A stretch of DNA of 64,000 bases from Colwellia psychrerythraea 34H (lineage in GTDB: Bacteria; Pseudomonadota; Gammaproteobacteria; Enterobacterales; Alteromonadaceae), in contig NC_003910.7 in assembly GCF_000012325.1 (NCBI RefSeq), positions 1,922,001 to 1,986,000 of the forward strand. The letters are read 5' to 3'. Positions 33,438 through 49,893 of the stretch are shown here, piece by piece; positions within the stretch are counted from its first letter, which is position 1, and the number at the start of each line of letters is the position of its first letter. Under the pieces are notes generated by a model that was given only the letters and a program-made list of their open reading frames with translations, did not search any database and was not told the DNA's origin. The position numbers were made by a program, and so were the translations under genes.

Positions 33438-33604
33438 CACAGCCATTTTATTAAGTTGGTGATGTTATTGTCTGTAGATTAAGTCACATTTTTTATTTAA
33501 GTGAGGAATTAATTTAATTCGTTCTAATAATGTTTATTTAATAACAAAATAGTCTTATATTTACCTTAATTACAGCTGTTTATTTACACAATTATTCGTG
33601 ATTT

Positions 33605-33755
33605 CTTCTTTCTACAACAAAGCGTACAAATTGCCTCCTTTCACACATCAACCACTTTAAGCTTTGTTTTTAACTCATTGATCTATCAATAACAATCAAG
33701 TAATCTCACTACATTATATAATTATGGACGATTTTTCCCATCTTGTAGAAAGAAG
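33605..33755. repeat. 13-bp inverted repeat bracketing cassette leader A
   Basis: CTTCTTTCTACAA (33605-33617) and TTGTAGAAAGAAG (33743-33755) are perfect inverted copies 125 bp apart. The inner copy lies in the leader shared with the second array, but the outer copy has no counterpart there. The rest of the 33388-33666 gap shows no gene and no integrase. Confidence 0.6.
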
Positions 33756-33780
33756 GAATTTTGTCTCATAATAACTGTTA
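33667..33780 (+). promoter_or_regulatory. Cassette-array leader A (attI-like), shared with leader B
   Basis: This ~114-nt sequence recurs at 48559-48672 with, by hand alignment, 8 mismatches and one single-base gap. In both places it ends with CTGTTA, so that its end is the G/TT point at which cassettes recombine, and the first cassette follows at once. It contains a TATAAT-like -10 (33717-33722) but no convincing -35. It does not have the paired arms of an attC site, so an attI-like or other primary insertion site is the best reading. Confidence 0.6.
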
Positions 33781-33799
33781 GCAATATTAAAGAGTCTGT

Positions 33800-34273
33800 A
33801 TGCAAATTAAATTTAAAGTGGCCAAATACGAAGATTCAGAAACCATAGGATCTTTGGTTGTTGACCTTACAAATGAAATTTGTGAATTAACAAAAGCTCA
33901 GCATTTTGATATTAATCTTAATAGTACAATTGAGCGTTGCCGTGAATTAATTAGTGATGGTCATTACGCTGCCATTATTGGTGAATATCAAAATAAGCCT
34001 GTTGCGGTTGTTACTTTTACAGAAACATATGCTTTATATGCTGGTGGTAAAATTGGTGTAATTCAAGAATTTTATGTTTCACCTGAACTTAGAGCTTCAG
34101 GTGTTGGTTCTACATTAATCGAACAAGTTAAAAAATACGGAAAGCAGCACGATTGGTCATGCATTGAATTATGCACACCACCTCTACCTGAATTTGAAAG
34201 AACATTAAATTTCTATCAAAAAAATGGTTTAATTCCTGTTGGTGGTCGTAAAATGAGACAAGCACTGGCGTAA
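33800..34273 (+). CDS. Cassette gene A1: GNAT-family acetyltransferase
   Basis: A 157-residue GNAT N-acetyltransferase. The acetyl-CoA-binding core is visible as IQEFYVSPELRASGVGSTLIEQV, followed by the FYQKNGLIPVGGRKMR end typical of the fold. The substrate is unknown. It is the first cassette of array A: the G/TT boundary is at 33777, 23 bp before its ATG, and AAAGAG serves as ribosome site. Its own attC site has been interrupted by an IS3 remnant immediately after the stop codon. Confidence 0.85.
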   Translation: MQIKFKVAKYEDSETIGSLVVDLTNEICELTKAQHFDINLNSTIERCRELISDGHYAAIIGEYQNKPVAVVTFTETYALYAGGKIGVIQEFYVSPELRASGVGSTLIEQVKKYGKQHDWSCIELCTPPLPEFERTLNFYQKNGLIPVGGRKMRQALA

Positions 34274-34281
34274 AATAAAAT

Positions 34282-35082
34282 GTGTCCGTTTTATCGGGGG
34301 AAGATCACTTTTATGCATGGCGACGACGTCCACGTTCAATGCGTGCTATTAATGATGCGGATTTACTTTTAAATATCAAACAAGTCTTTAATAACAATCA
34401 TCAAACCTACGGCAGCCCACGCGTATTTCATGCATTAAAGCGTGAAGGTATTACAACGAGTGAGAAGCGTGTTGCACGGTTGATGCGAGAAAATGGCTTA
34501 CGCGCTAGAGCGCTCAAGACTTATAGCAGGCCAGCTAAGGTGAAGTTCTTTTATAAAGCGATCAAAAACAATCGTAAAAACATAAGTAAGCCTGATGCTA
34601 TCAATCAGCAATGGTCGGGAGATATTACGTACCTGAAAGTAGGATCGCGCTGGTATTACTTAGCCGTTGTATTAGATTTATTTTCACGTCGTATCATTGG
34701 TTGGGCTTTTGGTCAGAACAAATCAACAGCGCTGACACTGAAAGCGCTGCAGCTAGCAATAAAGAAGCGTAAACCGACACAACCCTTGTTATTTCATACT
34801 GACAGAGGCGCTGAATATCGAGCACATGTAGTGCAGCAGTTCTTAGTTAAACATAACATTACGGCGAGTATGAACCGTCCAGGTTGTTGTACTGATAATG
34901 CTGAAGTTGAATCATTTTTTCATTCATTAAAAGCTGATTTAATCAGAGGGAATGTCTTCGCGACTACTGATAAATTACATTCAAAATTAAAAGGTTACAT
35001 GAACTATTTTTACAATAGACAACGATTGCATTCAAGTTTAGGATATAAAACACCTGCTGAGTTTGAATTGGCGGTGAATTAA
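34282..35082 (+). pseudogene. Truncated IS3-family transposase OrfB
   Basis: The frame keeps the HTH_21 region (YGSPRVFHALKREGI) and the complete rve catalytic core with all three acidic residues: Asp in WSGDITYL, Asp in FHTDRGAEY, Glu in DNAEVESFFHSLK. It ends with the usual YNRQRLHSSLGYKTPAEFE. The N-terminus is replaced by a readthrough of the neighbouring terminal repeat (VSVLSGEDH) before FYAWRRRP, and OrfA is absent, so transposition on its own is unlikely. Confidence 0.82.
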
Positions 35083-35116
35083 AGTGGATGGTGTCCACTT
35101 TATCGGGGGAAGATCA
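34282..35116 (+). mobile_element. IS3-family remnant inserted in the attC site of cassette A1
   Basis: The segment holds the 3' part of an IS3-type transposase gene and ends with a right terminal repeat (35091-35116, GTGTCCACTTTATCGGGGGA then AGATCA). A second copy of the same right-end sequence, with two mismatches, sits in direct orientation at 34282-34307, directly abutting the transposase fragment. OrfA and the left end are missing. The likely history is nested insertion and deletion. The insertion removed the R'' box of the attC site. Confidence 0.8.
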
Positions 35117-35117
35117 C

Positions 35118-35191
35118 AATTACAGTTGGTTTTTGCTCCTACGTCGCTTATTTTAACCAACTGCAATTTGCCCATTATTTGGGCGTTATAT
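35118..35191 (+). other. attC site of cassette A1, left box lost
   Basis: Contains the attC arms CAGTTGGTT...AACCAACTG and the right end GCCCATTATTTGGGCGTTATAT, with recombination point G/TT at 35185. The left R'' box is missing because of the IS3 remnant. Cassette A2 begins with TTATAT at 35186. Confidence 0.8.
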
Positions 35192-35215
35192 TTATCTCGA
35201 GGTTAGTGCTTAATA

Positions 35216-35485
35216 ATGGATGATGAGTCTAATAATAAAATGAGTTATAAGCAGTCCGCATTTCTATGGTGGTCTGTGTTTTGGAGAAGCATTTTAATTG
35301 GAGTATTTCCATTAATTTTCATAAATCTGTTACTTGTTAAAGGATTTGGTATTACAGATTCATATGCAACTTTGTTAATTAATTTGCTCTGGATTCCAGT
35401 CACTATTGGTATTCAATGCAGGGTGATTAATAGCAAAAAATTTAATACATTTAGCATTAGCGTTTCTAATAAAATAGATAGCTAA
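35216..35485 (+). CDS. Cassette gene A2: small two-helix membrane protein
   Basis: An 89-residue protein of unknown function with two probable membrane segments (about residues 18-42 and 50-68) and polar ends. It fills one cassette: start TTATAT at 35186, matching R'' box ATATAAC at 35492-35498, the exact complement. Gene family not recognised. Confidence 0.7.
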
Positions 35486-35491
35486 AAATAA

Positions 35492-35589
35492 ATATAACAA
35501 GCTAATAAATAAGGACAAAAAACAGTTGGCTGTTTTCGTTCCTCAATATTTTAGCCAACAATTTTTTGCCCATTATTAGGGCGTTAGGC
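35492..35589 (+). other. attC site of cassette A2
   Basis: A complete 98-nt attC: R'' ATATAAC (35492-35498), arms CAGTTGGCT and AGCCAAC around a variable loop, L'/R' end GCCCATTATTAGGGCGTTAGGC with recombination point at 35583. The R'' box is complementary to the start of its own cassette, as expected for a cassette inserted by an integron integrase. Confidence 0.9.
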
Positions 35590-35612
35590 TCTTTATATAA
35601 CTAGGGTGTAAT

Positions 35613-35990
35613 TTGAAATATCTCATTCTTAATTTTTTGTTATTTCTAATCGGTGTTGCTGGTTTGATGGTCATTAATGTCAATATCTTTGAACTAGGAG
35701 ATTCTAAATTCGATAAAGGTCTTGGAACATCTCTAGGGTTCTATTTTCCTATCTGGTTTGTATTCTATCTGCCTCATATCATTACTTGCATGCTAATCCT
35801 CAATTTAAAAATTGTATCGACAAGAGTGCAAGCTATTACCTTGCTTTGTTTTACTCTTATGATTTTATTGGTTGTAGAAATATCGTTTTTACTTAATGTT
35901 AAACTTGGAGCAATATTTGTAGAGTGGGTAGTGATTTTACTATGCGCTTGCTTTGCTCGTCGTTGGCTATCAAGAACAGAGTCAAAATAG
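35613..35990 (+). CDS. Cassette gene A3: four-helix membrane protein
   Basis: A 125-residue protein with about four membrane segments (residues 3-22, 40-60, 68-88, 95-115) and few charged residues inside. It starts at a TTG preceded by GGGTG; no ATG fits better. No family recognised. It is the only gene of its cassette, bounded by GTTAGGC at 35583 and R'' GCCTAAC at 35990-35996. The stop codon lies inside the R'' box, as is common for cassettes. Confidence 0.7.
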   Translation: MKYLILNFLLFLIGVAGLMVINVNIFELGDSKFDKGLGTSLGFYFPIWFVFYLPHIITCMLILNLKIVSTRVQAITLLCFTLMILLVVEISFLLNVKLGAIFVEWVVILLCACFARRWLSRTESK

Positions 35991-36090
35991 CCTAACAAGC
36001 TGTTAAACAAGGACAAAAAACAGTTGGCTTTTGCTCCTTCGTCGCTAATTTTAGCCAACAATTTTATTGCCTGTTAACTGGGCGTTATGT
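35990..36090 (+). other. attC site of cassette A3
   Basis: R'' GCCTAAC (35990-35996), arms CAGTTGGCT / AGCCAAC, right end GCCTGTTAACTGGGCGTTATGT, recombination point at 36084. GCCTAAC is the exact complement of the GTTAGGC that starts the cassette. Confidence 0.9.
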
Positions 36091-36100
36091 GTAAAGGATT

Positions 36101-36385
36101 ATGATGAGTAGTTGGCAACATCCTAAGAATAATGGATTGGATGACATAGAATATAATTTCGGCTTGAAAGGCGATGAAGCTAAAGAGCTAAGCTTCTTAT
36201 TAAATGAGGCGTGCCACGTTTATCATTACCATGCTGAGGGATTATGGGTTTCAGATGATAAAGATTCATATTCCAAAGGGTTGTTAAAATTTATGGATAA
36301 AAATCCAGAATTGGAATCACGCTTAATTCGGAGTAATGAAAGAGTTATTAAAATGATAACTTTCAGGGCTTTAGAGTTAAAGTAG
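36101..36385 (+). CDS. Cassette gene A4: hypothetical soluble protein
   Basis: A 94-residue acidic soluble protein (DDIEYNFGLKGDEAKELSFL, then EGLWVSDDKDSYSKGLLKFM) of no recognised family. An AAGGA ribosome site lies upstream; two ATG codons in tandem are possible starts. Its cassette begins TTATGT at 36085 and its R'' box ACATAAC (36391-36397) is the matching complement. Confidence 0.65.
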   Translation: MMSSWQHPKNNGLDDIEYNFGLKGDEAKELSFLLNEACHVYHYHAEGLWVSDDKDSYSKGLLKFMDKNPELESRLIRSNERVIKMITFRALELK

Positions 36386-36390
36386 TTTAC

Positions 36391-36417
36391 ACATAACAAG
36401 CTGTTAAACAAGGACAA
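36391..36417 (+). other. attC site of cassette A4, truncated
   Basis: Only the first 27 nt remain: R'' ACATAAC and CAAGCTGTTAAACAAGGACA, identical to the start of attC A3. The site is cut off where an IS-like terminal repeat begins, so array A cannot be extended from this end by recombination at this site. Confidence 0.75.
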
Positions 36418-36444
36418 TGAAGTTCCTCCGTTTTAGTGGACACC
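36418..36444 (+). mobile_element. Solitary IS3-type left end closing array A
   Basis: TGAAGTTCCTCCGTTTTAGT and GGACACC match 20 of 26 positions of the inverted complement of the IS3 right end at 35091-35116. It is therefore a left end of a related, not identical, element. No transposase follows; only about 50 bp of unexplained sequence separates it from the terminator of the next gene. Confidence 0.6.
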
Positions 36445-36493
36445 TTCATAGTTAGAATATGTCTAATAATGTAAGTCGAATTAATTAAAAAAA

Positions 36494-36512
36494 AGCCACA
36501 TATAATGTGGCT
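36494..36512 (-). terminator. Terminator of the His-rich lipoprotein gene
   Basis: AGCCACAT (36494-36501) pairs with ATGTGGCT (36505-36512), loop of 3 nt, followed on the minus strand by eight T residues. It ends the TonB receptor/lipoprotein unit. Confidence 0.85.
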
Positions 36513-36554
36513 AAAATAAAAACAAATAAAATGTGAGTAAGTTAAATCTGAGCT

Positions 36555-37853
36555 TTAGTGATCGTGCTCCTCTTCACCAGCAACACCTAACCACGCTGCT
36601 TTACCAGGTGTGAATGTTAAATCAAAGTGCCCAACTACGACACCTTCATGTAAATCAATTTCAGTAACTTCTTGCTCATGAACGATATAAATAATCTCGT
36701 GGGCTTTTGAAGAAATAATGAGTGGTTTTGAATCTTCCGCTAGGGCACTAAATACTTTAATACGACTATCTAATTGCCAATTATTTTCTGCTGAAAATAC
36801 GTTTAATTGTCCCGTATTATCGAGAATAAGCATATGCTCGTTATGACCATCAAAGCCATAGGTTACGGAAGTAAGTGCTTCTTCTTTTTGCCAATTAAAC
36901 GGGCTGATTTGCTGCGTTATTAAATCAACTAAAAAGAAACTACCACGTGCATTACCAATCATCACATTATTTTCTGAACTGCCCTTTAGTGAACCTATGC
37001 GAAGACCTTCTGACATGTCTGCAGGGTTAACAATCTTTTGTGCCGTAAATACACTACCTTGCTGCTCTATAGCTAAAATTCCATCACTACAGGCAAAAGC
37101 AATATGGGTATCTGTTTGAAAGCTACCATGTAAGTCAGGGCATTTAACATCAAATAGTTGTTCTTGGTGAAAGTGGTCATCATGTACTTCAAGCAGTGCT
37201 ACCTGATCAGGCAAACTACCTTCCGCATCAATTTCTCGATGAGTAGCTAATACAAATTCACCGCGGATCTCAGCAGTTCCATGCATATAAGTTTCAAAGT
37301 GATGCTCTGCAATCGTTTTTTCTGCCGCAATACTCTCGTCACTTAACAAACTTAATGATGCATTAGCACCTGTATCTTTGTTGCCATCAAAAAATATTGC
37401 TACTTGTTCACCACGTGGGACAAAGTGAGTTGGTTTTACACTATTTAACGTAAAGCTTGTAAGCTCAGGTGCATCGGCATGTTGATCAAAGTGATCACCA
37501 TGTGCTTCTTGCCATAAGCCGCCATCAATAAATTCAACCGTATCAAACGAGCGCTGCACTGCTACCGCATAACGGTTTTCAGGGCTTGCGTATAAATATT
37601 CAGCTGGGTTGGTAATCGAAATAGATTCAACTAAGGCATTATTTTCAAGATCAAAAATATGTACTACAGCTTGTTCACTATCCGCAATAGCTAAGCGACC
37701 TTTACCTAACTCCTCTTCGTGATTGTCATGGTCATTATCGATAGGTGTTGGCGTTTTTTCTATTTCGGTAATAGTAGTTTCACTGCCACCACAACCAACA
37801 AGTGCTGTCGCAGCACAGGCCAATAATAAGCTTTTTAACGAGATGATTTTCAT
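36555..37853 (-). CDS. His-rich propeller-like lipoprotein, probable metal-uptake partner
   Basis: A 432-residue lipoprotein: signal peptide with lipobox LVGC, a linker with DNDHDNHEEE, and then repeated beta-strand units reminiscent of a propeller. Histidine and aspartate are concentrated in exposed stretches (EAHGDHFDQHADAPE, HDDHFHQEQ, EEEHDH at the C-terminus). It lies 88 bp after a His-rich TonB receptor gene with Zur-like operators, so a role in zinc capture on the envelope is a reasonable inference. No enzyme motif is visible. Confidence 0.7.
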   Translation of the reverse strand: MKIISLKSLLLACAATALVGCGGSETTITEIEKTPTPIDNDHDNHEEELGKGRLAIADSEQAVVHIFDLENNALVESISITNPAEYLYASPENRYAVAVQRSFDTVEFIDGGLWQEAHGDHFDQHADAPELTSFTLNSVKPTHFVPRGEQVAIFFDGNKDTGANASLSLLSDESIAAEKTIAEHHFETYMHGTAEIRGEFVLATHREIDAEGSLPDQVALLEVHDDHFHQEQLFDVKCPDLHGSFQTDTHIAFACSDGILAIEQQGSVFTAQKIVNPADMSEGLRIGSLKGSSENNVMIGNARGSFFLVDLITQQISPFNWQKEEALTSVTYGFDGHNEHMLILDNTGQLNVFSAENNWQLDSRIKVFSALAEDSKPLIISSKAHEIIYIVHEQEVTEIDLHEGVVVGHFDLTFTPGKAAWLGVAGEEEHDH

Positions 37854-37941
37854 GAATGTCCTTTAAAATATAGAGTGATGCGCCCCTCTATTGAAAGGCG
37901 CTAAATTTAAATTGAATGTAGGATTGAATTGATTTGCTGAT

Positions 37942-40329
37942 TTAAAATGAACCGCGTAAACCCAGCGCCACTGAACGTCCTGCTAGCGGTGTTAAATCCT
38001 TTAAGAATGATGTGTGCACTTGTGCGTATTCATCTGTTAAGTTTATTGCTTTTAGATACACAGCTAAGTCATGCTGTCCTAAAGAAAAGTGATAGTTAAC
38101 GTTGGCATCAACCATGACATAGCTGTCTGTTGAGGTTTCTAGTTCGGCAGTATGCGTTTGTTCAAAATAGTGGCTGACAAATAAGTCGGCAGAAATACTT
38201 TCGCCTTGATAACTTAATTCGGTCGCAATACGGGCAGGTGGTGTTCTAGGTAATTCTCCCCCCTCATCTAAACGTGCACGAAGCACATCACCTTGTACTC
38301 GCCAAGTAAACTCATCAGTCACTTGCCAAACAAGCTGTGCTTCAAATCCATATAAGGATACATCTTGAGCGGTAAAGGTATAAAGCGGTAACGTATGGGC
38401 TTCTTCTACTTCGCCGCCGTGTCCGTGTCCGCTGTGATCATGACCATCACCAGCCGAGAAACCAGTCGCTTGCTCATAGTAGTAATCATCTATTTGGTTA
38501 TAAAAAACATTAAAGATGAAACCGAAGTCACCTTTAAACTTACGTAAACTTAGATCAATATTATTGGCGGTTTCCATGACAATATCATGATCAGTCAAAC
38601 CAAAGTGAGCAGCTTCGCCGTGGTCATCATGTAATGCAAACAAAGCACCTACTTCATATGAACCGGTACCAATATGAGGACCAAAAGATAATAGTTCCGC
38701 AGCAGATGGAGCACGTTCTGAATGAGATAATGATAAACCTACATTATAACCATCGATGAAATCCCACACTAGACCAGCAGAAAGACTAATCGGAGTAAAA
38801 ACATGTTCGACATTAAAATTGCGGGTATAACCTTGTGTTTCATGAGCCCCATGATCATGCGAGTCGTGTCCTGCATCATCGTCTGCGCCGTGATCATCAT
38901 GAGCAGACTTAACGAGTTCAAGTTCTGGCAAACGAACTTTAGCCGCGGTCACTTCAGTACGTTCAATACGCGCACCAAGTTGTACTAAAAAGTCACCAAA
39001 ATGACGTTCTTCTATCCAGGCTAAGCCGAGTGAATTTGTTTCTGATGGGGGTGTAAATGCCTCTTCGCCAACTGCAGTAAAATCACTTTGTTTATAGTGA
39101 AGACTTAAGCCACCACGCCAATCCAAGAAGTCTTGATGCAATAGTTCAACTCTCGCTTCTATCGACTCGTTATCAAAGGTAGTGCCGACCAAACCCAACT
39201 CTACTTCTGTATGACGATAATCAGTATAACCAATCTTGGTATTAAGTGATTTTATCACATTATTATCAAAACTAAGTTCACTTAATAGTTGAAAGCGATT
39301 TTGGGTTAAGTCGGCAGAAACTTCTATGTCTTCATCGCCATGACTATGGCCTGGTATACCGTATTCTTGTTCTAAATTCTGATAAGACAATCCAACAAAG
39401 CCGTTATCTAATAAATAACTGGTACCTAAGGTGAAGCCACTTGATTCCGCTGCTGAATTAGCTACTTCGTCAACACCATCTTTTTCAGGTATTTGATAGT
39501 TCTCGCTGTCGCGATAAAAGCCATCTGCATGTACCGCAATATTACCGGTACCACTGGTAAACGAGCCAGACGCTAATGTCTGCTCATTATTACTATTGTA
39601 TTCTGTTAACCATTCACCTGAAGTCTCTGTACTTTTAGGAATACTCTCATTAACAATATTCACTACACCACCAATAGCACCACTACCATAAAACAAGGTT
39701 GCTGGGCCGCGTAGAACTTCAATACGCTCACTGGTTGATGTTTCAGTAGAAACAGCATGATCGGGACCAACACGTGAAGCATCGCCAGCATCTAAACCAT
39801 TTTGTGTAATTAATACTCGTGGTCCGTCTAAACCTCGAATAATGGGGGTACTGGCTACACCACCATGAAAACTACTATGAACTCCCACTTCTTTGTTTAA
39901 CGTATCACCCAAGGTATTCGCTTGGCGCATACGTAAGCTTTCACCGTGTAATACAGTGATAGGTAATGCTGATTCGATATTTGAGCTATGAAAAGGAGTA
40001 GCACTAACATCAATAATTTCTAGTGCTGATTTATCTAATTGTACCGTGAGTTCGGGATTCTGATTTTTAGCTAAGTCGACTTGAATATTTTTATGTACGT
40101 AAGCGCTGGCAACGACATGTAATTCATACTTTCCTAGCTCAACCGTTAGGTTAAACCTACCGGTATTATCAGTGCTAGTCACAATGTTGGTGCCCATAAC
40201 TTTAACCGTGGCACCGCTAATAATCTTGCCTTCTTCGTTGGTAATCAAACCTGTTATTTGCTCAGCAAGTACTTGAGTACTTGAAGTAGCTAAGGCAAAT
40301 GCACTTGCCAGTAATGTAAACTTATTCAT
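37942..40329 (-). CDS. TonB-dependent receptor with His-rich loops, ZnuD-like
   Basis: A 795-residue outer-membrane receptor. It has a signal peptide (MNKFTLLASAFALATSSTQVLA), a carboxypeptidase-regulatory-like domain (about 25-105), a TonB plug (LPITVLHGESLRMRQANTL, RGPATLFYGSGAIGGVVNIV) and a 22-strand barrel ending in an aromatic residue (ALGLRGSF). Two extracellular loops are rich in His and Asp (DHGADDDAGHDSHDHGAHE and GDGHDHSGHGHGGE), as in zinc receptors of the ZnuD group. I use the ATG that starts the signal peptide; an in-frame ATG 6 codons upstream would overlap the operator region. Two Zur-like boxes precede the gene. Confidence 0.85.
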   Translation of the reverse strand: MNKFTLLASAFALATSSTQVLAEQITGLITNEEGKIISGATVKVMGTNIVTSTDNTGRFNLTVELGKYELHVVASAYVHKNIQVDLAKNQNPELTVQLDKSALEIIDVSATPFHSSNIESALPITVLHGESLRMRQANTLGDTLNKEVGVHSSFHGGVASTPIIRGLDGPRVLITQNGLDAGDASRVGPDHAVSTETSTSERIEVLRGPATLFYGSGAIGGVVNIVNESIPKSTETSGEWLTEYNSNNEQTLASGSFTSGTGNIAVHADGFYRDSENYQIPEKDGVDEVANSAAESSGFTLGTSYLLDNGFVGLSYQNLEQEYGIPGHSHGDEDIEVSADLTQNRFQLLSELSFDNNVIKSLNTKIGYTDYRHTEVELGLVGTTFDNESIEARVELLHQDFLDWRGGLSLHYKQSDFTAVGEEAFTPPSETNSLGLAWIEERHFGDFLVQLGARIERTEVTAAKVRLPELELVKSAHDDHGADDDAGHDSHDHGAHETQGYTRNFNVEHVFTPISLSAGLVWDFIDGYNVGLSLSHSERAPSAAELLSFGPHIGTGSYEVGALFALHDDHGEAAHFGLTDHDIVMETANNIDLSLRKFKGDFGFIFNVFYNQIDDYYYEQATGFSAGDGHDHSGHGHGGEVEEAHTLPLYTFTAQDVSLYGFEAQLVWQVTDEFTWRVQGDVLRARLDEGGELPRTPPARIATELSYQGESISADLFVSHYFEQTHTAELETSTDSYVMVDANVNYHFSLGQHDLAVYLKAINLTDEYAQVHTSFLKDLTPLAGRSVALGLRGSF

Positions 40330-40347
40330 GTTGAGACTAGATTCCAA

Positions 40348-40387
40348 TGTGATAATGTAACAATTTCAATAATGTTATATTATCACA
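40348..40387 (-). promoter_or_regulatory. Tandem Zur-like operators upstream of the His-rich TonB receptor
   Basis: TGTTATATTATCACA (40373-40387) departs by one base from the Zur palindrome TGTTATATTATAACA, and TGTGATAATGTAACA (40348-40362) is a second, weaker match 25 bp away. Both sit 19-58 bp upstream of the receptor ATG, where repressor binding would block transcription under zinc sufficiency. The remaining gap up to 40788 has no gene and no other clear signal. Confidence 0.65.
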
Positions 40388-40788
40388 TTATAAAAAGCAA
40401 CAAGTGTAAACGTCTTATATATTTAATGTAACTTTATGGCTGTTTTTTTATTAAAAGGTGTTACCTGTAACAATTAAAAATTGCGATATTAAACCTCAAA
40501 ATGCAACCGATGTAGACGTACTATTACGGTTTAGTTATTGATTGAACCATCAGTGGGCTGATGTTAATTTTGTTAGGTTTATTTTCTTATCAGGTGATCG
40601 TAGGTAAGGGGAGGGGTGAGCAATATAACTCACGCTCTATGTCTCTTTTTATCTATAAGTGGAAGCTAGAAGTAGGAGCTATAAGTGATAACATCTAAGC
40701 TTATCTCGTTACGCTGAAAGTATCTGTCTGTTAATTCAAACTCAATTCAGTCACTAAGCTTTATCAGCACATACACTTTTCTAGTGTA

Positions 40789-40817
40789 AAAAAGTCGCCT
40801 CGACAGGGCGACTTTTT
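40789..40817. terminator. Terminator of the CDGSH/glutamate-synthase operon
   Basis: A perfect 11-bp stem, AAAAAGTCGCC (40789-40799) with GGCGACTTTTT (40807-40817), loop of 7 nt, with A-rich and T-rich flanks. It lies about 75 bp past the stop codon of the minus-strand operon. Confidence 0.85.
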
Positions 40818-40893
40818 CACTGGAAGCTTTATTCTGAAATAAAGCTATATCAAGGAAGGTATAAACAAAAAATCATTAAACAACTATGGCTTT

Positions 40894-42441
40894 TTAATTA
40901 CCCATCCCTGAATATTTTACTCCTGAAAGTAGTGCTATTTCCCTATGCCAAGTAGCTAGGTCATTACTATTAAATTGTTCAAAAGAATCGTGACCACAAG
41001 CCCTCGCCATTACTGACATTAATTCAGTAGATGCTTCAAAAAAGTTTTTGAGCTGAACAGAAGATTTTTCTATATTTAAGCGTTGACGTAAATCTTTATT
41101 CTGCGTTGCAATACCCGCTGGGCAGTTATTCGTATTACATATTCTTGCGGCTACACAGCCTATTGCTTGCATAGCACTGTTCGAAACGGCAACACCATCA
41201 GCACCCAAAGCTAACGCTTTAACGAAGTCTATTGGCACTCGTAATCCACCTGTAATAATTAGCGTGACTCGACCATTAGCGCCTTGCTCATCTAGATACT
41301 TTCTAGCACGAGCAAGTGCAGGAATAGTGGGTACACTAATGTGATCTCTAAATATTTCAGGAGCAGCACCTGTGCCGCCGCCTCGACCATCTAAAATAAT
41401 GTAATCGGCACTAGCATCTAATGCGAATTGAATATCTTCTTCGATATGATTGGCACTGAGTTTAAATCCAATGGGAATACCTCCTGTGACTTCACGTACG
41501 CGGTTAGCAAATTTTTTAAAATCTTCTACTGTGATTAAATCTTTAAACGTTGGAGGTGATATAGCGGAAGTACCTGCTTCTATACCTCGCACTTTGGCAA
41601 TCTTCCCTATATTTTTGATACCGGGTAAATGACCACCTGTACCCGTTTTTGCCCCTTGACCACCCTTAAAATGGAACGCTTGAACATTCTTGAGTTTAGA
41701 CTCGTCATAGCCAAACTGAGCACTTGCCAGCTCATAAAAATACTTTGAGTTAGCCGCCTGTTCTTCAGGTAACATGCCTCCTTCGCCAGAACAAATACCT
41801 GTTCCTGCAAGTTCGGCGCCTGTTGCTAGGGCAATTTTGGCTTCTTCAGATAAAGCCCCAAAACTCATATCCGAAACAAACAGTGGAATACGGAGTTTAA
41901 GTGGTTTTTTCGCTTTAGGGCCAATCACTAACTCTGTATTCACCACTACATCTTCCATCAGCGGTTTGGTGGCCATCTGTGCAACCATTACCTGCAGATC
42001 ATCCCAGTGAGGTAGTTGATAACGTGGCACACCCATAGAGGTCATGGGACCATGATGTCCTAATTTAGATAAACCCTCTCGAGCCAATTGATGAATAAAT
42101 TCAACGGTTGGCTCTTCCTTAGTTGCGTTAGCGGTAGGCATATTACTTACATCAACTGCTTGAATTTGCACGCCAGGTCCTTCTTTGCCCACTTGGTCTT
42201 TATCAAATTGTTTATGACTACCATCACAAAAAGGGCTATTGGCGGTATGCTTACATTGGCATAAATAGGCATCACCGCTTTCTTGGGCGGAAAAAGGCTT
42301 AGGTTTAAAATCTGTACCTGCATGAGAACCGTCACAGAATGGCTGGTTATTTGACCGGCCACAGGTACAAAAATAATATTCCTCATCCTGATTTAGACTC
42401 ACTTTCTTTGGTGCTATCGCTGCAATTATAGGTTTAGTCAT
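40894..42441 (-). CDS. Dual CDGSH iron-sulfur domain fused to FMN glutamate-synthase-type domain
   Basis: A 515-residue cytosolic protein. Two CDGSH-type 2Fe-2S motifs open it: C25, C27, C36, H40 (CTCGRSNNQPFCDGSH) and C61, C63, C72, H76 (CQCKHTANSPFCDGSH). The rest is a glutamate-synthase-like FMN domain (FVSDMSFGALSEEAK, KGGQGAKTGTGGHLPG, ADYIILDGRGGGTGAAP, CNTNNCPAGIATQN). It has no glutaminase domain, so it is not ordinary GOGAT; such FMN domains act as oxidoreductases of unclear substrate. It ends the minus-strand operon cytochrome b561 - GST - MBL-fold - this gene. A redox role with the two 2Fe-2S centres feeding FMN is inferred. Confidence 0.85.
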   Translation of the reverse strand: MTKPIIAAIAPKKVSLNQDEEYYFCTCGRSNNQPFCDGSHAGTDFKPKPFSAQESGDAYLCQCKHTANSPFCDGSHKQFDKDQVGKEGPGVQIQAVDVSNMPTANATKEEPTVEFIHQLAREGLSKLGHHGPMTSMGVPRYQLPHWDDLQVMVAQMATKPLMEDVVVNTELVIGPKAKKPLKLRIPLFVSDMSFGALSEEAKIALATGAELAGTGICSGEGGMLPEEQAANSKYFYELASAQFGYDESKLKNVQAFHFKGGQGAKTGTGGHLPGIKNIGKIAKVRGIEAGTSAISPPTFKDLITVEDFKKFANRVREVTGGIPIGFKLSANHIEEDIQFALDASADYIILDGRGGGTGAAPEIFRDHISVPTIPALARARKYLDEQGANGRVTLIITGGLRVPIDFVKALALGADGVAVSNSAMQAIGCVAARICNTNNCPAGIATQNKDLRQRLNIEKSSVQLKNFFEASTELMSVMARACGHDSFEQFNSNDLATWHREIALLSGVKYSGMGN

Positions 42442-42510
42442 TTTAGTTTCCTTTTACTGCCTGTTATATAGTTCTATAGTTCTACTTAATTCCAATCCAT
42501 CTTTTCTGTA

Positions 42511-43413
42511 TTACCATCCCATATGGTAATAAGCCCAGATGCGCTCAATATTCATTGGCAACCATTGTTCGTAGTACTGCCAGTGCTCATACTTAGGTAG
42601 TTTTACTTGTTTCCTCAATGCATCGGGGCTGTGAACTCCTTCATCCATTTTTAGTTTAACTGCGGCCATTAAATCTTCGATGTAGACTCGTTGCTCTTTT
42701 ATAACAGAGGCGGGGTCAATGGCCGGTTGATTCTCCGGACCATGAGCAGAAATAACGTAATCAACATCCATTAATTCAATTTCTTTTAAAGAACGAACCC
42801 ACTCATCAGGCCAAAAGTCTGGCATGCCTCTAAAAGCAACTCGACGAGGTGTGACTATATCAACAACAAAGAGAATTTTTTCTTTAGGGAATCGCATCAC
42901 AACAAGGCTATCACCGTGGTTTGGCCCAAAGTACGATAGTTCTAATGTTCGGTTACCTAGGGTCAAGGTGTAGGTATCTTCAAAAACAATGTCAGGTATT
43001 GGCAATACAGGACTTGGATGGTCTTTAAGCTGCTTTAATAGATTTTTATGGCCAATAAATTTCGCACCTTCAGCTTTAAATATATTACCGCCGGAAATAT
43101 GGTCATGATGGTTATGACTATAAACAACATATTTAACGGGTTTATCCGTTATTTTTCTAATTTCACTTTGTAGTAGCTTCGCTGCTTTTGGGTTAAGGGG
43201 ATCTGAAACAATTACACCGTCATCAGTGACGACAAAAAAATTACGATAAACCCACCAACGAAATACATAAATTCCGTTACCAACATGTTTAACACTGTGG
43301 CCAAAAGTTTTCCCACCCATAGGCTCCTGAGTTGGAAATTCTGGCGATGCTATTGCTAATGATGAAATGAACAATCCCAATATTAAGGTGATTGTTTGTA
43401 TTGTTGTTTTCAT
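42511..43413 (-). CDS. Exported metallo-beta-lactamase-fold hydrolase
   Basis: A 300-residue protein with a signal peptide (to SLAIAS) and an MBL fold: the zinc motif HNHHDH in VVYSHNHHDHISGGN, a second His in GPNHGDSLVV, the Asp of FVVDIVTPRR and a final His in VISAHGPENQ. It resembles periplasmic MBL-fold proteins encoded near quinoprotein or thiol-linked systems; the substrate is unknown. It lies between a GST gene and the CDGSH fusion gene in one operon, which suggests a shared detoxification or thioester-cleaving pathway, by inference. Confidence 0.8.
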   Translation of the reverse strand: MKTTIQTITLILGLFISSLAIASPEFPTQEPMGGKTFGHSVKHVGNGIYVFRWWVYRNFFVVTDDGVIVSDPLNPKAAKLLQSEIRKITDKPVKYVVYSHNHHDHISGGNIFKAEGAKFIGHKNLLKQLKDHPSPVLPIPDIVFEDTYTLTLGNRTLELSYFGPNHGDSLVVMRFPKEKILFVVDIVTPRRVAFRGMPDFWPDEWVRSLKEIELMDVDYVISAHGPENQPAIDPASVIKEQRVYIEDLMAAVKLKMDEGVHSPDALRKQVKLPKYEHWQYYEQWLPMNIERIWAYYHMGW

Positions 43414-43444
43414 AAGCTACTCCTTTTAAAATAAATGTAGATGA

Positions 43445-44212
43445 TTATTTGTCCCACCACTCGTTTTGAATCTGAGCAAGGGTGTAACTTTTTCGCTGTT
43501 GCATTCTTAAATAGTAGCTAGCTATCTGTGGAAAACTATTATTGTTTAACCATTTACTGTAGCCCAACAAATCTAGTCTTGAGAGTATCACCGTCCAAAT
43601 TACATCAGCTAAGGTGTAGGTATTGCCTATTAGAAATTCATTATCTTGTAAGAGTTTTTCAACAAATGTAATGGCTTCCAATGCACTTTGTTCAATATTT
43701 TCGATATGTGTATTATCAACCCGAAACGTTTTGCTCTTTTGTGAACGCTCAGCACAAACAAGGTAATTATCGCTAAGTTCAGGGAGTTGTTTAGACATTA
43801 AAAGTGATTTTGTAACTCGAGCATTCAATATCTTTTCAGATTTTTCCATTGAAGGGTGACGTGCGTAACTGAGAATTTGAAGATCAATATCATCTGCCAA
43901 GTCAATTAATCTCTCCATTAACTGAAGATCGTTTTCATCTTGAGGCAACAAGACGTTACCTTCAGAAACAGAAGCGACAAACCGAATGATATGAGCAGAG
44001 TCAGTCAATACTTTTGTTGTGCCGTTTCGAAACTCCAACGTGGGAATGACTCCCTTTGGGTTTAGTTTCAAATACCATGGGTCTAGTTGGTCTTGCTTTT
44101 GTACAATGTCGATAACCCGTCCCGACCAAGCAAGTCCTTTTTCTTCAAGTACTAGTCGAACCTTCATTGAACACACGGATAAAGGATGATGATAAAGCAT
44201 GAATGAGGTCAT
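43445..44212 (-). CDS. Glutathione S-transferase family protein
   Basis: A 255-residue GST-like protein. The N-terminal thioredoxin-type domain (MLYHHPLSVCSMKVRLVLEE, NPKGVIPTLEF, DSAHIIRFV) has a serine/cysteine (SVCS) at the usual catalytic position, and the C-terminal helical domain (FLIGNTYTLADVIWTVILSRL) is complete. It sits 31 bp before the MBL-fold gene and after the cytochrome b561 gene. Substrate unknown. Confidence 0.82.
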   Translation of the reverse strand: MTSFMLYHHPLSVCSMKVRLVLEEKGLAWSGRVIDIVQKQDQLDPWYLKLNPKGVIPTLEFRNGTTKVLTDSAHIIRFVASVSEGNVLLPQDENDLQLMERLIDLADDIDLQILSYARHPSMEKSEKILNARVTKSLLMSKQLPELSDNYLVCAERSQKSKTFRVDNTHIENIEQSALEAITFVEKLLQDNEFLIGNTYTLADVIWTVILSRLDLLGYSKWLNNNSFPQIASYYLRMQQRKSYTLAQIQNEWWDK

Positions 44213-44264
44213 AATGTTAATTCCTATTGATTCGAAAGTTGAGCAGATAACGTTAAATTATTTC

Positions 44265-44831
44265 TTATATGCGCGGTTTTATTGGCATCATGCGCGGCAG
44301 AACATCAGCTTCAGGCTTATCTAGAAATCGATGTTTTAGTGCCCCTGTAATATGGGCAAATAATGCAGCCATTAGGGTATATACCAGTAGAAAATGCGCT
44401 TGTTTAGCCAATAGGGCCATTTCTGTATTTTTACCAAACAAAACAGGTAGGTCGATTAAGCCGAATAAGCTAACAGGGTAACCAAATAAATTTGTCATGG
44501 CATAGCCGCTAAACGGAATGGCCAACATTAATAAGTATAATGAGCCTGTTATTGTTTTTGAGAGTAATTTCTCCCAACTCGCCAATACGTCTGGCAATTT
44601 TGGTGAGTTATTAAGTCGACTCCAAATCACACGGAGAATCGCGAACTGCATGAAGATAACGCCAAAAGATTTATGCATACCCACGAGTAGCATTTTGTTG
44701 GGATCCGCTTTATCTAATCCTGCCATGTAAGTACCCACTGCAATGAGTACTATTATCATCAGGGCCATTACCCAGTGCAAAAACTTAGCAAACTTGCCAT
44801 AGCTTTGTTCTTTCATATTTTCAGTATTCAT
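44265..44831 (-). CDS. Cytochrome b561
   Basis: A 188-residue inner-membrane di-heme cytochrome b561. Four membrane helices carry the histidines expected to bind heme b: FAKFLHWVMAL, LLVGMHKSFGV, AKQAHFLLVYTL and FAHITGALKH. These proteins pass electrons between quinones and periplasmic acceptors. It is the first gene of the minus-strand operon, and a truncated LysR-type gene faces it across 127 bp. Confidence 0.88.
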   Translation of the reverse strand: MNTENMKEQSYGKFAKFLHWVMALMIIVLIAVGTYMAGLDKADPNKMLLVGMHKSFGVIFMQFAILRVIWSRLNNSPKLPDVLASWEKLLSKTITGSLYLLMLAIPFSGYAMTNLFGYPVSLFGLIDLPVLFGKNTEMALLAKQAHFLLVYTLMAALFAHITGALKHRFLDKPEADVLPRMMPIKPRI

Positions 44832-44958
44832 AAGTCACCTTTCAGATTCATTGTTGGCAACTAATGCCATGTATAATCACTTATGTATAGCTTATTGTAT
44901 TTTTATGGGTTGATATACGTGCTATTAGTCAACTTATTGTTCACTCACAGGTATTAAT

Positions 44959-45432
44959 GTGAATATTTTAACACTGATGGAAACTGGAAGCTTTACTGCG
45001 GCGGCTGATAAACTTGGACTTTCCAAATCATTTATCAGCAAAAAAAATTGGTTTTTAGAGGAAGATCTGGGAACTCGGCTACTTTACCGCACCACGCGAA
45101 AATTGAGTTTTTCTGACGAAGGGAGCCAATTCTATAAGCACTGTAAGGTAATCATGGCTGAAGCTGAAAATGCTCGTGCCGAAGTCATGGACAGCCAAGG
45201 AGCGCCAAGGGGGAACATTCGTATAACAATGCCTCAAAGTCTTATCATTTCTGGTTTTGGCCAATTGTTGATAGATTTTCAACTTCAATATCCAGAAATA
45301 GACCTTGAAGTAATAGCCAGTGGGCGTATTGAAGATTTGGTGGAAGAGGGGATAAATATTGCACTCAGAGTGGGGCAACTGGAAGACTCAAGCCTTATAT
45401 CCGCTAAATCGAAACCTCTTTCGAAGAATTAG
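44959..45432 (+). pseudogene. Truncated LysR-family regulator
   Basis: A 157-residue remnant of a LysR regulator (normal length about 300). The winged helix-turn-helix is present (METGSFTAAADKLGLSKSFISK, EEDLGTRLLYRTTRKLSFSDEG), and the effector domain starts (GNIRITMPQSLIISGFGQLL) but stops after LRVGQLEDSSLI. The start is a GTG lacking the usual first ~5 residues of the family. The following 170 bp do not continue the domain. Its position divergent to the cytochrome b561 operon suggests it once regulated that operon. It may still make a DNA-binding stub. Confidence 0.75.
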
Positions 45433-45601
45433 AATGTTGATTGATTATTTATCTGAGCGGTTATTTGTTTAGTATTGAATGTTTAAATGGTTTGTATTTA
45501 TATTTGTGAAACGTCAGACATTGGTTATTTTAAATAATTAAGAGGCGCTGATTTTTCAATAGCGACCCCTTTTCATTAATAAGTATCTAAACACTCTTTA
45601 C

Positions 45602-46480
45602 TCATTGCTTAACATCAGACTTAATTGTTTTCAAAATATCTACAAAACGGGTAAGGGAAGGTGTCCAAGTTGACTGCTTAGCTGTAACAAAATAGGTATC
45701 TATATTAGCGATAGACGAGGGCAGATTGAGATAACCAATGTCGAACCGATGGCGATGAGCCTCCACTGTGGACAAGGGCATAATTGAATAACCCATACCT
45801 GATGCCACACAACCTAATATGCCATCTATGCTACCGAATTCAAAAATACGCGTTGCATTGACTCCACAAGTTGAAAGTAATTGCTCAATACGTTGGCGGT
45901 AGCTACACCCCTGACGAAACGCGAGAAAAGTTGTTTCTAAGAATTGTTCAGCGGTGGGGAATTTTTGTAATGTTTTAGGGCCGACAAGTACCAATTCTTC
46001 AGAGAATGCTTTTATAACTTGCAAGCGCTTGTGCTTTGGTTTTCCAGCAATAAAAACACCATCTACATCACCTTCTATTAACTGAGTTAGCAGTTGGGCT
46101 GTTGGAGCTGTTTCAACGGTAATATCTATTTGAGCATAACGGGCATGAAAGGCAGCTAATACAGGGGGTAGACGTAATGCTGTTGTTGTCTCCATTGCGC
46201 CAATTCGCAGTCGACTAGGTATAGACTCATCACCTTTAAATAACCCTAAAACATCATCATGAGATTTGAGTATTTGTTTTGCATAAGTGACCACATCTCT
46301 ACCTGCTGTAGTCAAACGAGCACCACCTTTACGGTGAAATAGTAGAGCACCTAACTCTTCCTCTAGCTTCTTGATATGGGCTGTTACGTTCGATTGAACA
46401 GTGTGTTGACGCTCTGCTGCGGCAACAAAACTTCCAGTCTCTGCTACATCCATGAAAAGGCGAAGTGATTTTATTTGCAT
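45602..46480 (-). CDS. LysR-family transcriptional regulator
   Basis: A full-length LysR regulator of 292 residues: N-terminal helix-turn-helix (MQIKSLRLFMDVAETGSFVAA, VQSNVTAHIKKLEEELGALLF) and a complete substrate-binding domain (PSRLRIGAMETTTALRLPPV, VDGVFIAGKPKH, GCVASGMGYSIMPLS). It is divergent from an MFS transporter/GST pair across 199 bp, the usual arrangement for a LysR activator of its neighbours. No inducer can be inferred. Confidence 0.88.
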   Translation of the reverse strand: MQIKSLRLFMDVAETGSFVAAAERQHTVQSNVTAHIKKLEEELGALLFHRKGGARLTTAGRDVVTYAKQILKSHDDVLGLFKGDESIPSRLRIGAMETTTALRLPPVLAAFHARYAQIDITVETAPTAQLLTQLIEGDVDGVFIAGKPKHKRLQVIKAFSEELVLVGPKTLQKFPTAEQFLETTFLAFRQGCSYRQRIEQLLSTCGVNATRIFEFGSIDGILGCVASGMGYSIMPLSTVEAHRHRFDIGYLNLPSSIANIDTYFVTAKQSTWTPSLTRFVDILKTIKSDVKQ

Positions 46481-46679
46481 CTTATTTTTCTTTATTAACT
46501 TTATCTATCACAATATATGATACTTGAGTTCATTACAAATCACTTTTAATGGTGTGCATTGGCGTAATACAATAACGTGGTAAGAGTCGCCAAATTGAGC
46601 GAAATAAAGTGCAGTAAGTTGTTTTACTGTAACTTTTAATTAGCACAGTAAATTGCACCTATCATAGTGAGTTATAAAA

Positions 46680-47900
46680 ATGATTAAAAAAGAAGACCAT
46701 CCTGCAATAGTTGTTGGCATTATGGCAACGCTTGCAGGGATTGGCATAGCCCGCTTTGCTTACACCCCTTTATTGCCCGAGTTAGTACAACAAGGCTGGT
46801 TCAGTGGAGGTCAAGCTGCTTATTTGGGGGCTGCAAATTTGTTAGGTTATTTGATTGGTGCTCTCTCTGCTTTTCGACTATCAGAATCGTTTGATCCTTC
46901 ATCAGTGATAAGGCTTTGTTTAGTTAGCATCTGTTTGAGTTTCATTTTTTGTGCTCAGCCAAATAGTTTCGAATGGTTTTTTATTTGGCGATTTATAGCT
47001 GGGATAGCTGGCGCTATTCTTATGGTTGTTGGCCCAGCAGAAGCTCTGGCTTGTACACCTCTTTCTCGCCGTACAAGTGTAGGTACCTTAGTTTTTATTG
47101 GCATTGGATTAGGCGCTGTAATATCAGCGATAACTGTGCCTTTGCTCTTACAGATTAATTTATTTATTACATGGATTTCTCTTGGAGGTATCATAATTTT
47201 TATTGGCATACTCTGTCATTTTGCCCTTAAAAAGCTGCCTAATAAAGCATTTCAAAAAGAGGTAACTTCTGAACAAACCACCGATAACCATAAAACTAAA
47301 ACTATCGTATTTTTGCTGGTAGCTGCTTACGCGCTTGATGCCGTAGGCTTTATCCCACACACAGTATTTTGGGCTGACTATCTAGCACGAGAGTTAGGAT
47401 TAGGAATTAATATTGCGTCTACACAATGGTTAGTTTTTGGCATAGGCGCAATGTTAGGCCCCATTTTTGTTGGCATTACTGCGCATAAAGTCGGACTAAG
47501 CTATGCACTTCTCATTGCTTTTTTGTTTAAAGCAGTTGCCGTATTCCTTCCCACTTTATCAGATAGTTTAATTATCTTAACAATATCCTCTTTTATTGTT
47601 GGCGCTTTGGTTCCAGGAGTTGTTGCACTTGCCTCAGGTCGAATAGCCGAATTAGTTGGAGCGCGAAAACACAAACAATTTTGGGGATTAGCTACGGCTA
47701 CTTTCGCTATAGCGCAAGCGATTTCAGGCTATGGAATGTCTTTAATTTATAACCTTTGGGAAAGTTATATTTATCTATTTTACATAGGCAGCACAGCGAT
47801 AGTTTGTGGTTTTTTTCTTCTCTTTATAGGAGAAATAGTCATCGCAACAAACAAATCAAAACAAAATAAATCCACAACACTTAATGAGATGAAACTATGA
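46680..47900 (+). CDS. YbfB/YjiJ-family MFS transporter
   Basis: A 406-residue inner-membrane transporter with 12 predicted helices. The opening IMATLAGIGIARFAYTPLLPELVQ and AAYLGAANLLGYLIGAL are the hallmark of the YbfB/YjiJ family of the major facilitator superfamily. Substrate unknown, efflux is likely. The stop overlaps the start of the following GST-like gene (ATGATG), and both are probably activated by the divergent LysR protein. Confidence 0.85.
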   Translation: MIKKEDHPAIVVGIMATLAGIGIARFAYTPLLPELVQQGWFSGGQAAYLGAANLLGYLIGALSAFRLSESFDPSSVIRLCLVSICLSFIFCAQPNSFEWFFIWRFIAGIAGAILMVVGPAEALACTPLSRRTSVGTLVFIGIGLGAVISAITVPLLLQINLFITWISLGGIIIFIGILCHFALKKLPNKAFQKEVTSEQTTDNHKTKTIVFLLVAAYALDAVGFIPHTVFWADYLARELGLGINIASTQWLVFGIGAMLGPIFVGITAHKVGLSYALLIAFLFKAVAVFLPTLSDSLIILTISSFIVGALVPGVVALASGRIAELVGARKHKQFWGLATATFAIAQAISGYGMSLIYNLWESYIYLFYIGSTAIVCGFFLLFIGEIVIATNKSKQNKSTTLNEMKL

Positions 47901-48502
47901 TGAAATTATATCTAAATGCAACCTCGCCATACGCTCGTATGGTGCGCATTATTATGTTAGAAAAACAATTAGAAGGTAACGTTGAACTGTGTTGGTGCGA
48001 TCCTTGGAGTGATGATGAAGCGCTCCTTAGGGAAAATCCTATTGGGCGAATACCAACATTAGTGACTGATGTTGGTATGGCAATATCTGAATCTCTTCTC
48101 ATTGCGCTTTATTTAGATGAACAATGTTCAGTTCGACCGCTCATTACAGCTGATCGTAAAGAGGAGACTCTTCATGTTGCGGGTTTAGGTGTTGGGTTAA
48201 TGGATGCTGCTTTTTCTACGGTAATTTCAGCTAAGTACTTAAATAACGAGGCCAATGATTCTGTTTTAAGTCAACGAGGTTTAAGAGAAATTCAACGAAC
48301 TCTTGAACATTTAGAAAACAATGTAGAGTGTTATATATCATTTGAAACCATTTCTATTGGTGATATTGCTGTTGCCGTAGCCTTAGATTACCTAGCGTTT
48401 AGATTACCAGAACTTGGAATATCCAATAGCTATACAAAGTTAGAGGACTGGCGTAGTAACATCAGTAAACGTTTAAGCTTTAAAGAAACAGCATTTGAAT
48501 AA
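47897..48502 (+). CDS. GST-like protein coupled to the MFS transporter
   Basis: A 201-residue protein with a GST N-terminal domain (LYLNATSPYARMVRIIMLEK, NPIGRIPTLVTD, ISESLLIALYLDE) and a helical C-terminal domain (ETISIGDIAVAVALDYLAF). Its ATG overlaps the stop codon of the MFS gene. Together they resemble a conjugate-and-export pair. Enzyme activity is not established. Array B leader follows 56 bp after the stop. Confidence 0.82.
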   Translation: MMKLYLNATSPYARMVRIIMLEKQLEGNVELCWCDPWSDDEALLRENPIGRIPTLVTDVGMAISESLLIALYLDEQCSVRPLITADRKEETLHVAGLGVGLMDAAFSTVISAKYLNNEANDSVLSQRGLREIQRTLEHLENNVECYISFETISIGDIAVAVALDYLAFRLPELGISNSYTKLEDWRSNISKRLSFKETAFE

Positions 48503-48558
48503 AAAGCGCTTATTAGGCTGAATAGATTCCTTAATACATTAACCACTTAGCCCAATAC

Positions 48559-48672
48559 TTTTAACTCATTGATCTATCTATAACAATCGAGTAATCTCAG
48601 TCCATTATAAAATTATGGACGATTTTTCCCATCTTGTAGAAAGAAGGGATTTTTCCTCATAATAAGCTGTTA
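48559..48672 (+). promoter_or_regulatory. Cassette-array leader B (attI-like), shared with leader A
   Basis: Near-duplicate of 33667-33780. Similarity fades upstream after an AACCACTT block (48541 here, 33650 there) and stops downstream at CTGTTA, the G/TT point at 48669, after which the first cassette of array B begins. No integrase gene lies beside it: the upstream neighbour is the GST-like gene. Confidence 0.6.
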
Positions 48673-48696
48673 TAGGTTTCATAAGGATTGTGTAAA

Positions 48697-48960
48697 TTGA
48701 AAATATTTTTTCCAATTTTAATCGTGTTTTTTTTGTTTTTTTCCTCTGATAGTTTAGCTAAAGAGGGGTATAACAGTGAATCTAAAAAATACGCGGTTAA
48801 CAAATCGAAAAAGAAGCCGAAGCTTAAATGTGATGGTAGGCAACATTGTTCTCAAATGAGATCATTTGAAGAAGCTAAGTACTTTATAAAACATTGTCCT
48901 AATACAAAAATGGATGGTGATAATGATGGCATTCCATGTGAAGGGTACAAAAAAAGATAG
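48697..48960 (+). CDS. Cassette gene B1: exported Excalibur-domain protein
   Basis: An 87-residue protein with an N-terminal signal segment (LKIFFPILIVFFLFFSS), a Lys-rich linker, and a C-terminal Excalibur calcium-binding domain: CDGRQHCSQMRSFEEAKYF, then CPNTKMDGDNDGIPCE with the DxDxDGxxCE loop. There is no ATG; I take the TTG with AAGGA about 10 nt upstream, though a TTG three codons earlier is possible. Role unknown, probably extracytoplasmic. Confidence 0.72.
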   Translation: MKIFFPILIVFFLFFSSDSLAKEGYNSESKKYAVNKSKKKPKLKCDGRQHCSQMRSFEEAKYFIKHCPNTKMDGDNDGIPCEGYKKR

Positions 48961-49049
48961 GTGTTAAAACGAACGGCTAATAGTTGGCTTAGCTTCGTTC
49001 CTCACAGATTATAGCCAACTATTACTCACCGCTTATGGCGGCGTTAGGA
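48961..49049 (+). other. attC site of cassette B1, degenerate left box
   Basis: Arms TAGTTGGCT (48981-48989) and AGCCAACTA, then CCGCTTATGGCGGCGTTAGG with recombination point at 49043. The arms match those of array A. The R'' box expected from the cassette start (CTATAAC) is not present; GTTAAAAC is the nearest, so this site has decayed. Confidence 0.75.
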
Positions 49050-49072
49050 ATATTTCAAAGGATTGGAATTAA

Positions 49073-49762: not shown

Positions 49763-49776
49763 ACGGTGTAATATAG

Positions 49777-49872: not shown

Positions 49873-49893
49873 ATTTCAAAAAGGATGCAGTTC

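Follow-up and report, generated by a model that had tools for sequence, protein, structure and literature searches.

Known sedentary integrons have a divergently oriented integrase gene (intI) and a LexA box, and the usual picture is of a single attI platform for each integrase. The sedentary chromosomal integron of Vibrio cholerae is described with one intI-attI platform (PMC3948777). Clusters of attC sites lacking integron-integrases (CALINs) are reported at conserved loci and as mobilisable in trans (PMC12444791). The nearest cases that we found in the literature are CALINs of Xanthomonas, at conserved loci, and of Shewanella; attI is not described for them in the parts of that literature drawn on here. 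Here we describe an attI region that is dispersed in several copies over Colwellia chromosomes. We start from a repeat, the leader, that opens two cassette arrays in a 64,000-nucleotide stretch of Colwellia psychrerythraea 34H (NC_003910.7, positions 1,922,001 to 1,986,000), the whole of which is called the window below.

Like the V. cholerae integron, the Colwellia system combines an integrase, an attI, a cassette promoter (Pc) near attI and a cassette array. Unlike it, Colwellia has several dispersed attI sites per chromosome, most of them without intI, with two or more attI families in a single genome. The Colwellia arrays resemble CALINs in lying far from intI, but many of them open at an attI homologous to intI-linked attI, whereas the parts of PMC12444791 drawn on here do not mention attI for CALINs. 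Both window arrays fit the CALIN definition, which rests on attC alone, with at least two attC sites and no TIGR02249 match nearby; they depart from the attI-less CALIN, which is our reading of the usual case, in having an attI at each array start. Insertion at attG sites (PMC12444791, PMC12901181) is likewise reported to place arrays away from a platform, but the Colwellia target is a conserved attI rather than a loose genomic site. This layout with several platforms is a new form of integron. A search of open-access literature by title and start of abstract found no description of dispersed attI copies or of Colwellia integrons; subscription journals lay mostly outside this search, so its result is not proof of novelty.

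The two window copies, at 33645–33780 and 48536–48672 (genome 1,955,645–1,955,780 and 1,970,536–1,970,672), both on the plus strand, are 86.9% identical over 137 bp (BLAST, E 8e-43); copy 2 is without the 5′ part. The original prediction, made from the sequence alone, described a recurring 114-bp leader, and realignment bears this out with 105 identical positions, 8 mismatches and two gaps, one of them internal and one at the end. As it also stated, likeness stops at CTGTTA in both copies and a cassette begins there, at the G/TT crossover point between G33777 and T33778 in copy 1 and between G48669 and T48670 in copy 2. The upstream neighbours are indeed unlike: copy 1 follows an ABC-2 permease gene, so labelled from a domain search, and copy 2 follows a gene whose glutathione S-transferase (GST) label is that of the prediction. 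A whole-genome search adds a third copy at 2,995,867–2,996,046 (minus strand), with an attC ∼1 kb beyond it; copy 1 shares with it a further stretch on the left, to ∼33600. This stretch had been overlooked, as had a fourth, truncated copy at 2,281.4 kb.

Comparison with other genomes identifies the leader. Among 61 genomes searched (the window's own, 36 others of the genus and 24 of other families), leader DNA occurs at 58 places in 18 genomes, all of them among the 37 of the genus and none among the 24 of other families. A leader pattern that finds 35 of the 58 known copies gives 30 stretches in a named genome collection, all in Colwellia records, and 0 exact matches in viral contigs, where it is likewise limited to the kind of copy represented by those 35; a plasmid collection holds no match to the leader. 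Eleven of the 58 leaders are flanked by a divergent intI gene or remnant, whose IntI frame match starts 33–91 bp away. The other 47, which we call satellites, are without an IntI match at E 1e-5 in the examined flank. In Colwellia relatives, leader DNA makes up the intI-attI intergenic region. In intact intI-linked copies, a LexA-type box is followed by a CTTTCTACAAGAAAG palindrome, a Pc-like pattern, CTTGTAGAAAGAAGG and a CATAATAAACTG/TTA-type end, in that order. Among all copies with room for it, GTT comes after the attI motif in 50 of 53. An intact IntI of the leader's clade is present in the close relative G007.

The regulatory features of the intI side persist in part of the satellites. 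A LexA-like box, so named by analogy with known integrons, has all eight half-site bases in 10 of 11 intI-linked copies versus 15 of 44 satellites; at least seven of eight are present in 29 of 44 satellites versus 0 of 55 shuffled controls (three weak copies are left out of these counts and of those for Pc). The pattern TTGAnn-N17-TAnnnT, picked after the alignment had been viewed and counted among copies that are related to each other, occurs in 43 of 55 copies versus 8 of 1100 shuffles, including 33 of the 44 satellites. In the window, the putative Pc (TTGATC, 17 nt, TAATCT) lies at 33678–33706 in copy 1 and, by the same inference, at 48569–48597 in copy 2, both on the plus strand. Judged by alignment and position, the leader is an integron attI region, and it probably carries Pc. 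The predicted attI-like recruitment site is supported as an attI that is used away from intI and consists of the intI-attI DNA of relatives; its proposed integrase elsewhere in the genome is not (see below). The prediction was also right about multiple integrase-less sites, but its scope of two arrays was too small for 58 places in the genus.

The leaders might instead owe their likeness to chance, if cassettes had entered ordinary attG-like genomic sites and the leaders merely sampled the preferred targets. Insertion at attG is reported to exist (PMC12444791, PMC12901181), and in some arrays of the window's genome no attI was detected. We nevertheless regard this as extremely improbable for these leaders: an identity of 87% over 137 bp, together with homologues at 58 places, some of them beside intI, means common descent and contradicts such an origin.

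Most satellites stand at the head of an array. Where at least 1.5 kb of downstream sequence is available, a same-strand attC lies within 1.6 kb downstream of 30 of 38 satellites and of all five intI-linked copies; on the upstream side, 3 of 46 satellites have an attC within 2.5 kb. Matches up to E 1e-3 were entered into this count by hand and weaker opposite-strand duplicates were dropped, with one opposite-strand match staying in. The prediction had held that it would fall if the leader lay mainly away from cassettes or inside a larger duplicated gene, and neither was seen. The single-contig relatives G011 and G036 have satellites that are hundreds of kilobases away from the intI with the matching attI.

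We propose that the leader is the attI and Pc of a chromosomal integron, and that the satellites without intI are served in trans by one IntI; we put the probability of this reading at about 0.74. Several attI sites are present on many Colwellia chromosomes: a mother platform adjoining intI, and satellites that have their own cassette arrays and no intI. The IntI of the mother platform would work in trans, so that cassettes would be inserted at the G/TT of each satellite, and the satellite Pc would drive the first genes of its array. In the window's genome, the sites would now be frozen, or reliant on an incoming IntI. Trans action by one IntI appears to be the best-supported mechanism. If this is true, part of the CALINs become active satellites, with first-position cassettes at many loci together, and Colwellia offers a natural experiment on attI-IntI co-evolution. 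It also raises the general question of how many CALINs in other genera open with an overlooked attI.

Likeness among copies of the same genome is one line of evidence. For 53 aligned copies (five of the 58 were left out, three as weak partial matches and two as cut by contig ends, here and in the sliding-window comparison below) and ortholog groups set by eye, identity over the 3′ 129 bp is 0.824 within a genome (n = 82 pairs), 0.792 between orthologous loci (n = 80) and 0.768 otherwise (n = 1216). For 22.5 of 51 copies, the nearest neighbour of the 3′ part is another copy from that genome, against a maximum of 11.5 in 2000 permutations. The best paralog is closer than the best ortholog in 21 cases and less close in 7 (4 ties), whereas over the 5′ 89 bp these counts are 11 and 21. 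Satellites also occur in other attI lineages of the genus. Their 3′ 130 bp are 0.834 identical within versus 0.642 between genomes (3 of 21 sequences left out as different attI lineages), and 13 of 17 have their nearest neighbour within their own genome, against a maximum of 10 in 5000 permutations. G003, G014, G023 and G036 each have one satellite whose 3′ part matches the intI-linked attI at 88–99%. Such within-genome likeness is expected alike from a shared trans-acting IntI, from gene conversion and from the two together.

Turnover behind the crossover is the second line. Orthologous satellite pairs have a common upstream flank in 29 of 29 cases, and the first 300 bp past the crossover are alike in 0 of 29. 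At one satellite, flank and leader are 93.6% alike between G034 and G035, and the DNA right behind differs; that G034 satellite has, in third position, a cassette with 97% identity over 416 bp to the one that comes first at an intI-linked leader of G035. These data bear on whether satellites are relics of whole integrons, each of which lost its intI and kept an array that has been inert since, with no trans action. Remnants of the 5′ end of intI beside a few satellites are what such relics would leave: at G026_C7, a 79% match over 63 bp (E 2e-7), with a protein match that is weak by itself (E 0.23), and intI starts at G002:C103 (58 aa), G002:C2 (25 aa) and G020:C23 (28 aa). The window's genome also shows intI loss at its own platform. 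However, relics should favour the ortholog over paralogs and keep their post-crossover DNA, whereas the 3′ part does the opposite and none of the 29 pairs shares that DNA. The relic account suits the origin of satellites, less so their present state where intI is intact, and we consider it unlikely as a whole.

Several observations weigh against service in trans. In the sliding window, excess within-genome likeness peaks mid-leader, around the Pc-like pattern, and over the last ∼70 bp by the crossover all copies are alike, with an excess over orthologs of 0.00–0.03. Ordinary gene conversion could be the source of the within-genome likeness, and the paralog and ortholog statistics ignore phylogeny. 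In the other attI lineages, identity in the 5′ part, too, is higher within genomes (0.615) than between them (0.524), and the copies of G013 and G020 are nearest to other genomes. Seven of the 38 satellites are without an attC within 2.5 kb, three of them weak partial matches; two sites among the 29 orthologous pairs have no downstream attC match; and many genomes are drafts with contig ends close to leaders. A consensus promoter scanner called no Pc at either window leader. Finally, 19 attC clusters or single sites were delimited by eye in the window's genome from an attC list that is a lower bound (150 of 4169 candidates scored); an attI relative lies ahead of 13 of them (one truncated, one weak), and no attI was detected at the start of the other six. 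The peak around the conserved Pc-like pattern would suit a different account, in which the leader is a shared repeat with a promoter or regulatory role, homogenised by RecA-mediated conversion and found at array starts only because cassette genes need a promoter. We think this very unlikely, since likeness halts at the G/TT cassette boundary and leader DNA adjoins intI with its LexA-like box.

Service in trans needs an IntI, and the window's genome appears to have lost its own. A whole-genome TIGR02249 search found no cognate integrase. It returned one 131-position remnant with one stop, from a different IntI class (80% identical to the IntI of G015 and no more than 53% to any other listed IntI), and two weak matches within other recombinase frames. 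We therefore reject the integrase that the original prediction placed elsewhere in the genome; the cognate intI is gone from its own platform, and no functional cognate intI, as a complete integron would have, was found in the genome. The former platform is the truncated fourth copy at 2,281.4 kb. Its 3.45 kb flank matches, at 85%, the flank of the G007 platform, where intI is intact. Approximately the last 14 intI codons are followed by a 47-bp match to the end of leader 1 (79% identity, E 4e-7), and CTG/TTA and cassettes come next. As this platform joins the end of intI to the end of the leader, most of intI and most of the platform attI were lost, probably through deletion. Three long satellite copies remain in this genome.

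Because a decayed LexA-like box is kept and a few satellites adjoin an intI start, the satellites are probably derived from whole platforms, or from the part nearest intI, with the integrase side lost since. Copy 1 of the window has such a box at 33576–33591 (plus strand; CTGT-N8-ACAA, 7 of 8 half-site bases, aligned with the intI-side boxes), probably a remnant of an intI promoter. Nucleotide matches to platform genes upstream of satellites of the leader family (family 1) were found at G026_C7 alone. In one satellite group, a ∼330 bp unit that opens with a terminator-like hairpin is common to several unrelated loci, as judged by eye. The hairpin, AAACGCGACTTAG..CTAAGTCGCGTTTTTT, also recognised by eye, lies ∼150–200 bp upstream of leaders in L082, L085, L093, L097, L103 and L107, and it is possible that it insulates the satellite from upstream transcription. 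No uninterrupted version of the permease locus of copy 1 could be recognised: the permease is present in 15 of 39 genomes, with downstream DNA too diverged to show one. In G011, a second-class IntI remnant (L181:2608-2928; 83% over 107 aa to the G015 protein) lies just downstream of this permease gene. The intergenic region after the permease may be a repeated landing place.

The leader is not the only attI family in these genomes. A second family has 13 copies in the window's genome (G000, contig C1), at the head of or within attC arrays, at 208.5, 210.9, 378.0, 382.6, 1688.9, 1690.0, 1695.2, 1727.0, 2604.5, 2867.3, 2990.5, 3104.6 and 3163.3 kb (loci L217-L220, L223, L226-L228, L232 and L236). 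The 11 aligned copies end in AATAAGCTGTTA or a variant, with a same-direction attC 0.2–1.9 kb downstream. In G015 this family adjoins an intact intI of the other class, and matches to it, some of them short, occur in 27 of 39 Colwellia genomes. The window with its leaders masked gave, against 107 attI sequences, nothing beyond 1e-4 except the flank of leader 2 itself. A weak attI-like end of a third type (L231:5617-5679, minus strand, ∼900.6 kb; 75% over 63 bp, E 6e-6) lies ∼1.4 kb before an attC and close to a tyrosine recombinase gene (L011) that is unlike intI.

Some attI copies lie inside arrays as the end of a cassette-like unit. Three such units, at L236:3575-4072 (G000 C1:1,689,574-1,690,071), in G034_C1 and in G035_C424 (L119 and L106), open at G/TTATCRATACAAAAT right behind an attC and close in an attI, of family 2 in the G000 unit and of family 1 in the other two, behind a common left module. 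None of the three contains an open reading frame (ORF) >50 aa, nor does a fourth unit, in G007, which is not behind an attC. The array at 1,688.9–1,697 kb of the window's genome has three attI copies in series. Attempts to read the TTATCRATACAAAAT module as a constant attI carrier failed: seven of nine modules are directly behind an attC, and attI is detectable behind four of the eight with room.

These units recall the attI-replaced (DattI-type) cassettes of class 1 and 2 integrons, which are reported to work with IntI1 (PMC12901181). In both, a cassette-like unit closes in attI sequence, and the three units have the attC G/TT on the left and attI G/TT on the right of the DattI type, which the window leaders do not. 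Unlike DattI-type cassettes as described in the part of that paper drawn on here, the Colwellia units are without an ORF >50 aa, have a long attI of two families behind one module, and lie in chromosomal arrays. They have the form of attI-ended cassettes, and may be moved by IntI. Tentatively, Colwellia attI could thus be a mobile multi-copy element: IntI would move gene-less attI-Pc cassettes into arrays and other chromosomal sites and so seed platforms, those matching the resident IntI would be kept, and the network would outlast IntI loss. The platforms so seeded would include the 16 attI copies of two families in the window's genome. We rate this extension as less likely than not.

The arrays behind the two window leaders hold different cassettes directly after each leader, with attC sites of the common Colwellia type. 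A covariance model (R1, built from 23 sites) places same-strand attC sites at 35098–35192, 35492–35590 and 35990–36091 after copy 1, and at 48955–49050 and 49777–49873 after copy 2. All cassettes are on the plus strand. In array 1, cassette 1 (33778–35185) encodes a GNAT acetyltransferase (33800–34273) and a transposase ORF (34282–35082; rve, HTH_21) ahead of the first attC. Cassettes 2 (35186–35583; ORF 35216–35485) and 3 (35584–36084; ORF 35613–35990) end in the second and third. Cassette 4 (36085–36420; ORF 36101–36385) keeps the start of an attC, cut beside a sequence like the end of an insertion sequence, and the covariance model gives no attC match there. In array 2, cassette 1 (48670–49043) encodes an Excalibur-domain protein (48688–48960) and cassette 2 (49044–49866) an ORF (49073–49762) with a DUF5004 match slightly under the cut-off. 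The transposase region of array 1 (34271–35122) is bounded by 43-nt end repeats that are direct, not inverted, and 79% alike. Behind the third leader of the genome, the first cassette (L002:635-1495, minus strand) codes for a TIR-domain protein of the CAP12/Pycsar type (PF10137, 3e-33), which may be an effector of phage defence.

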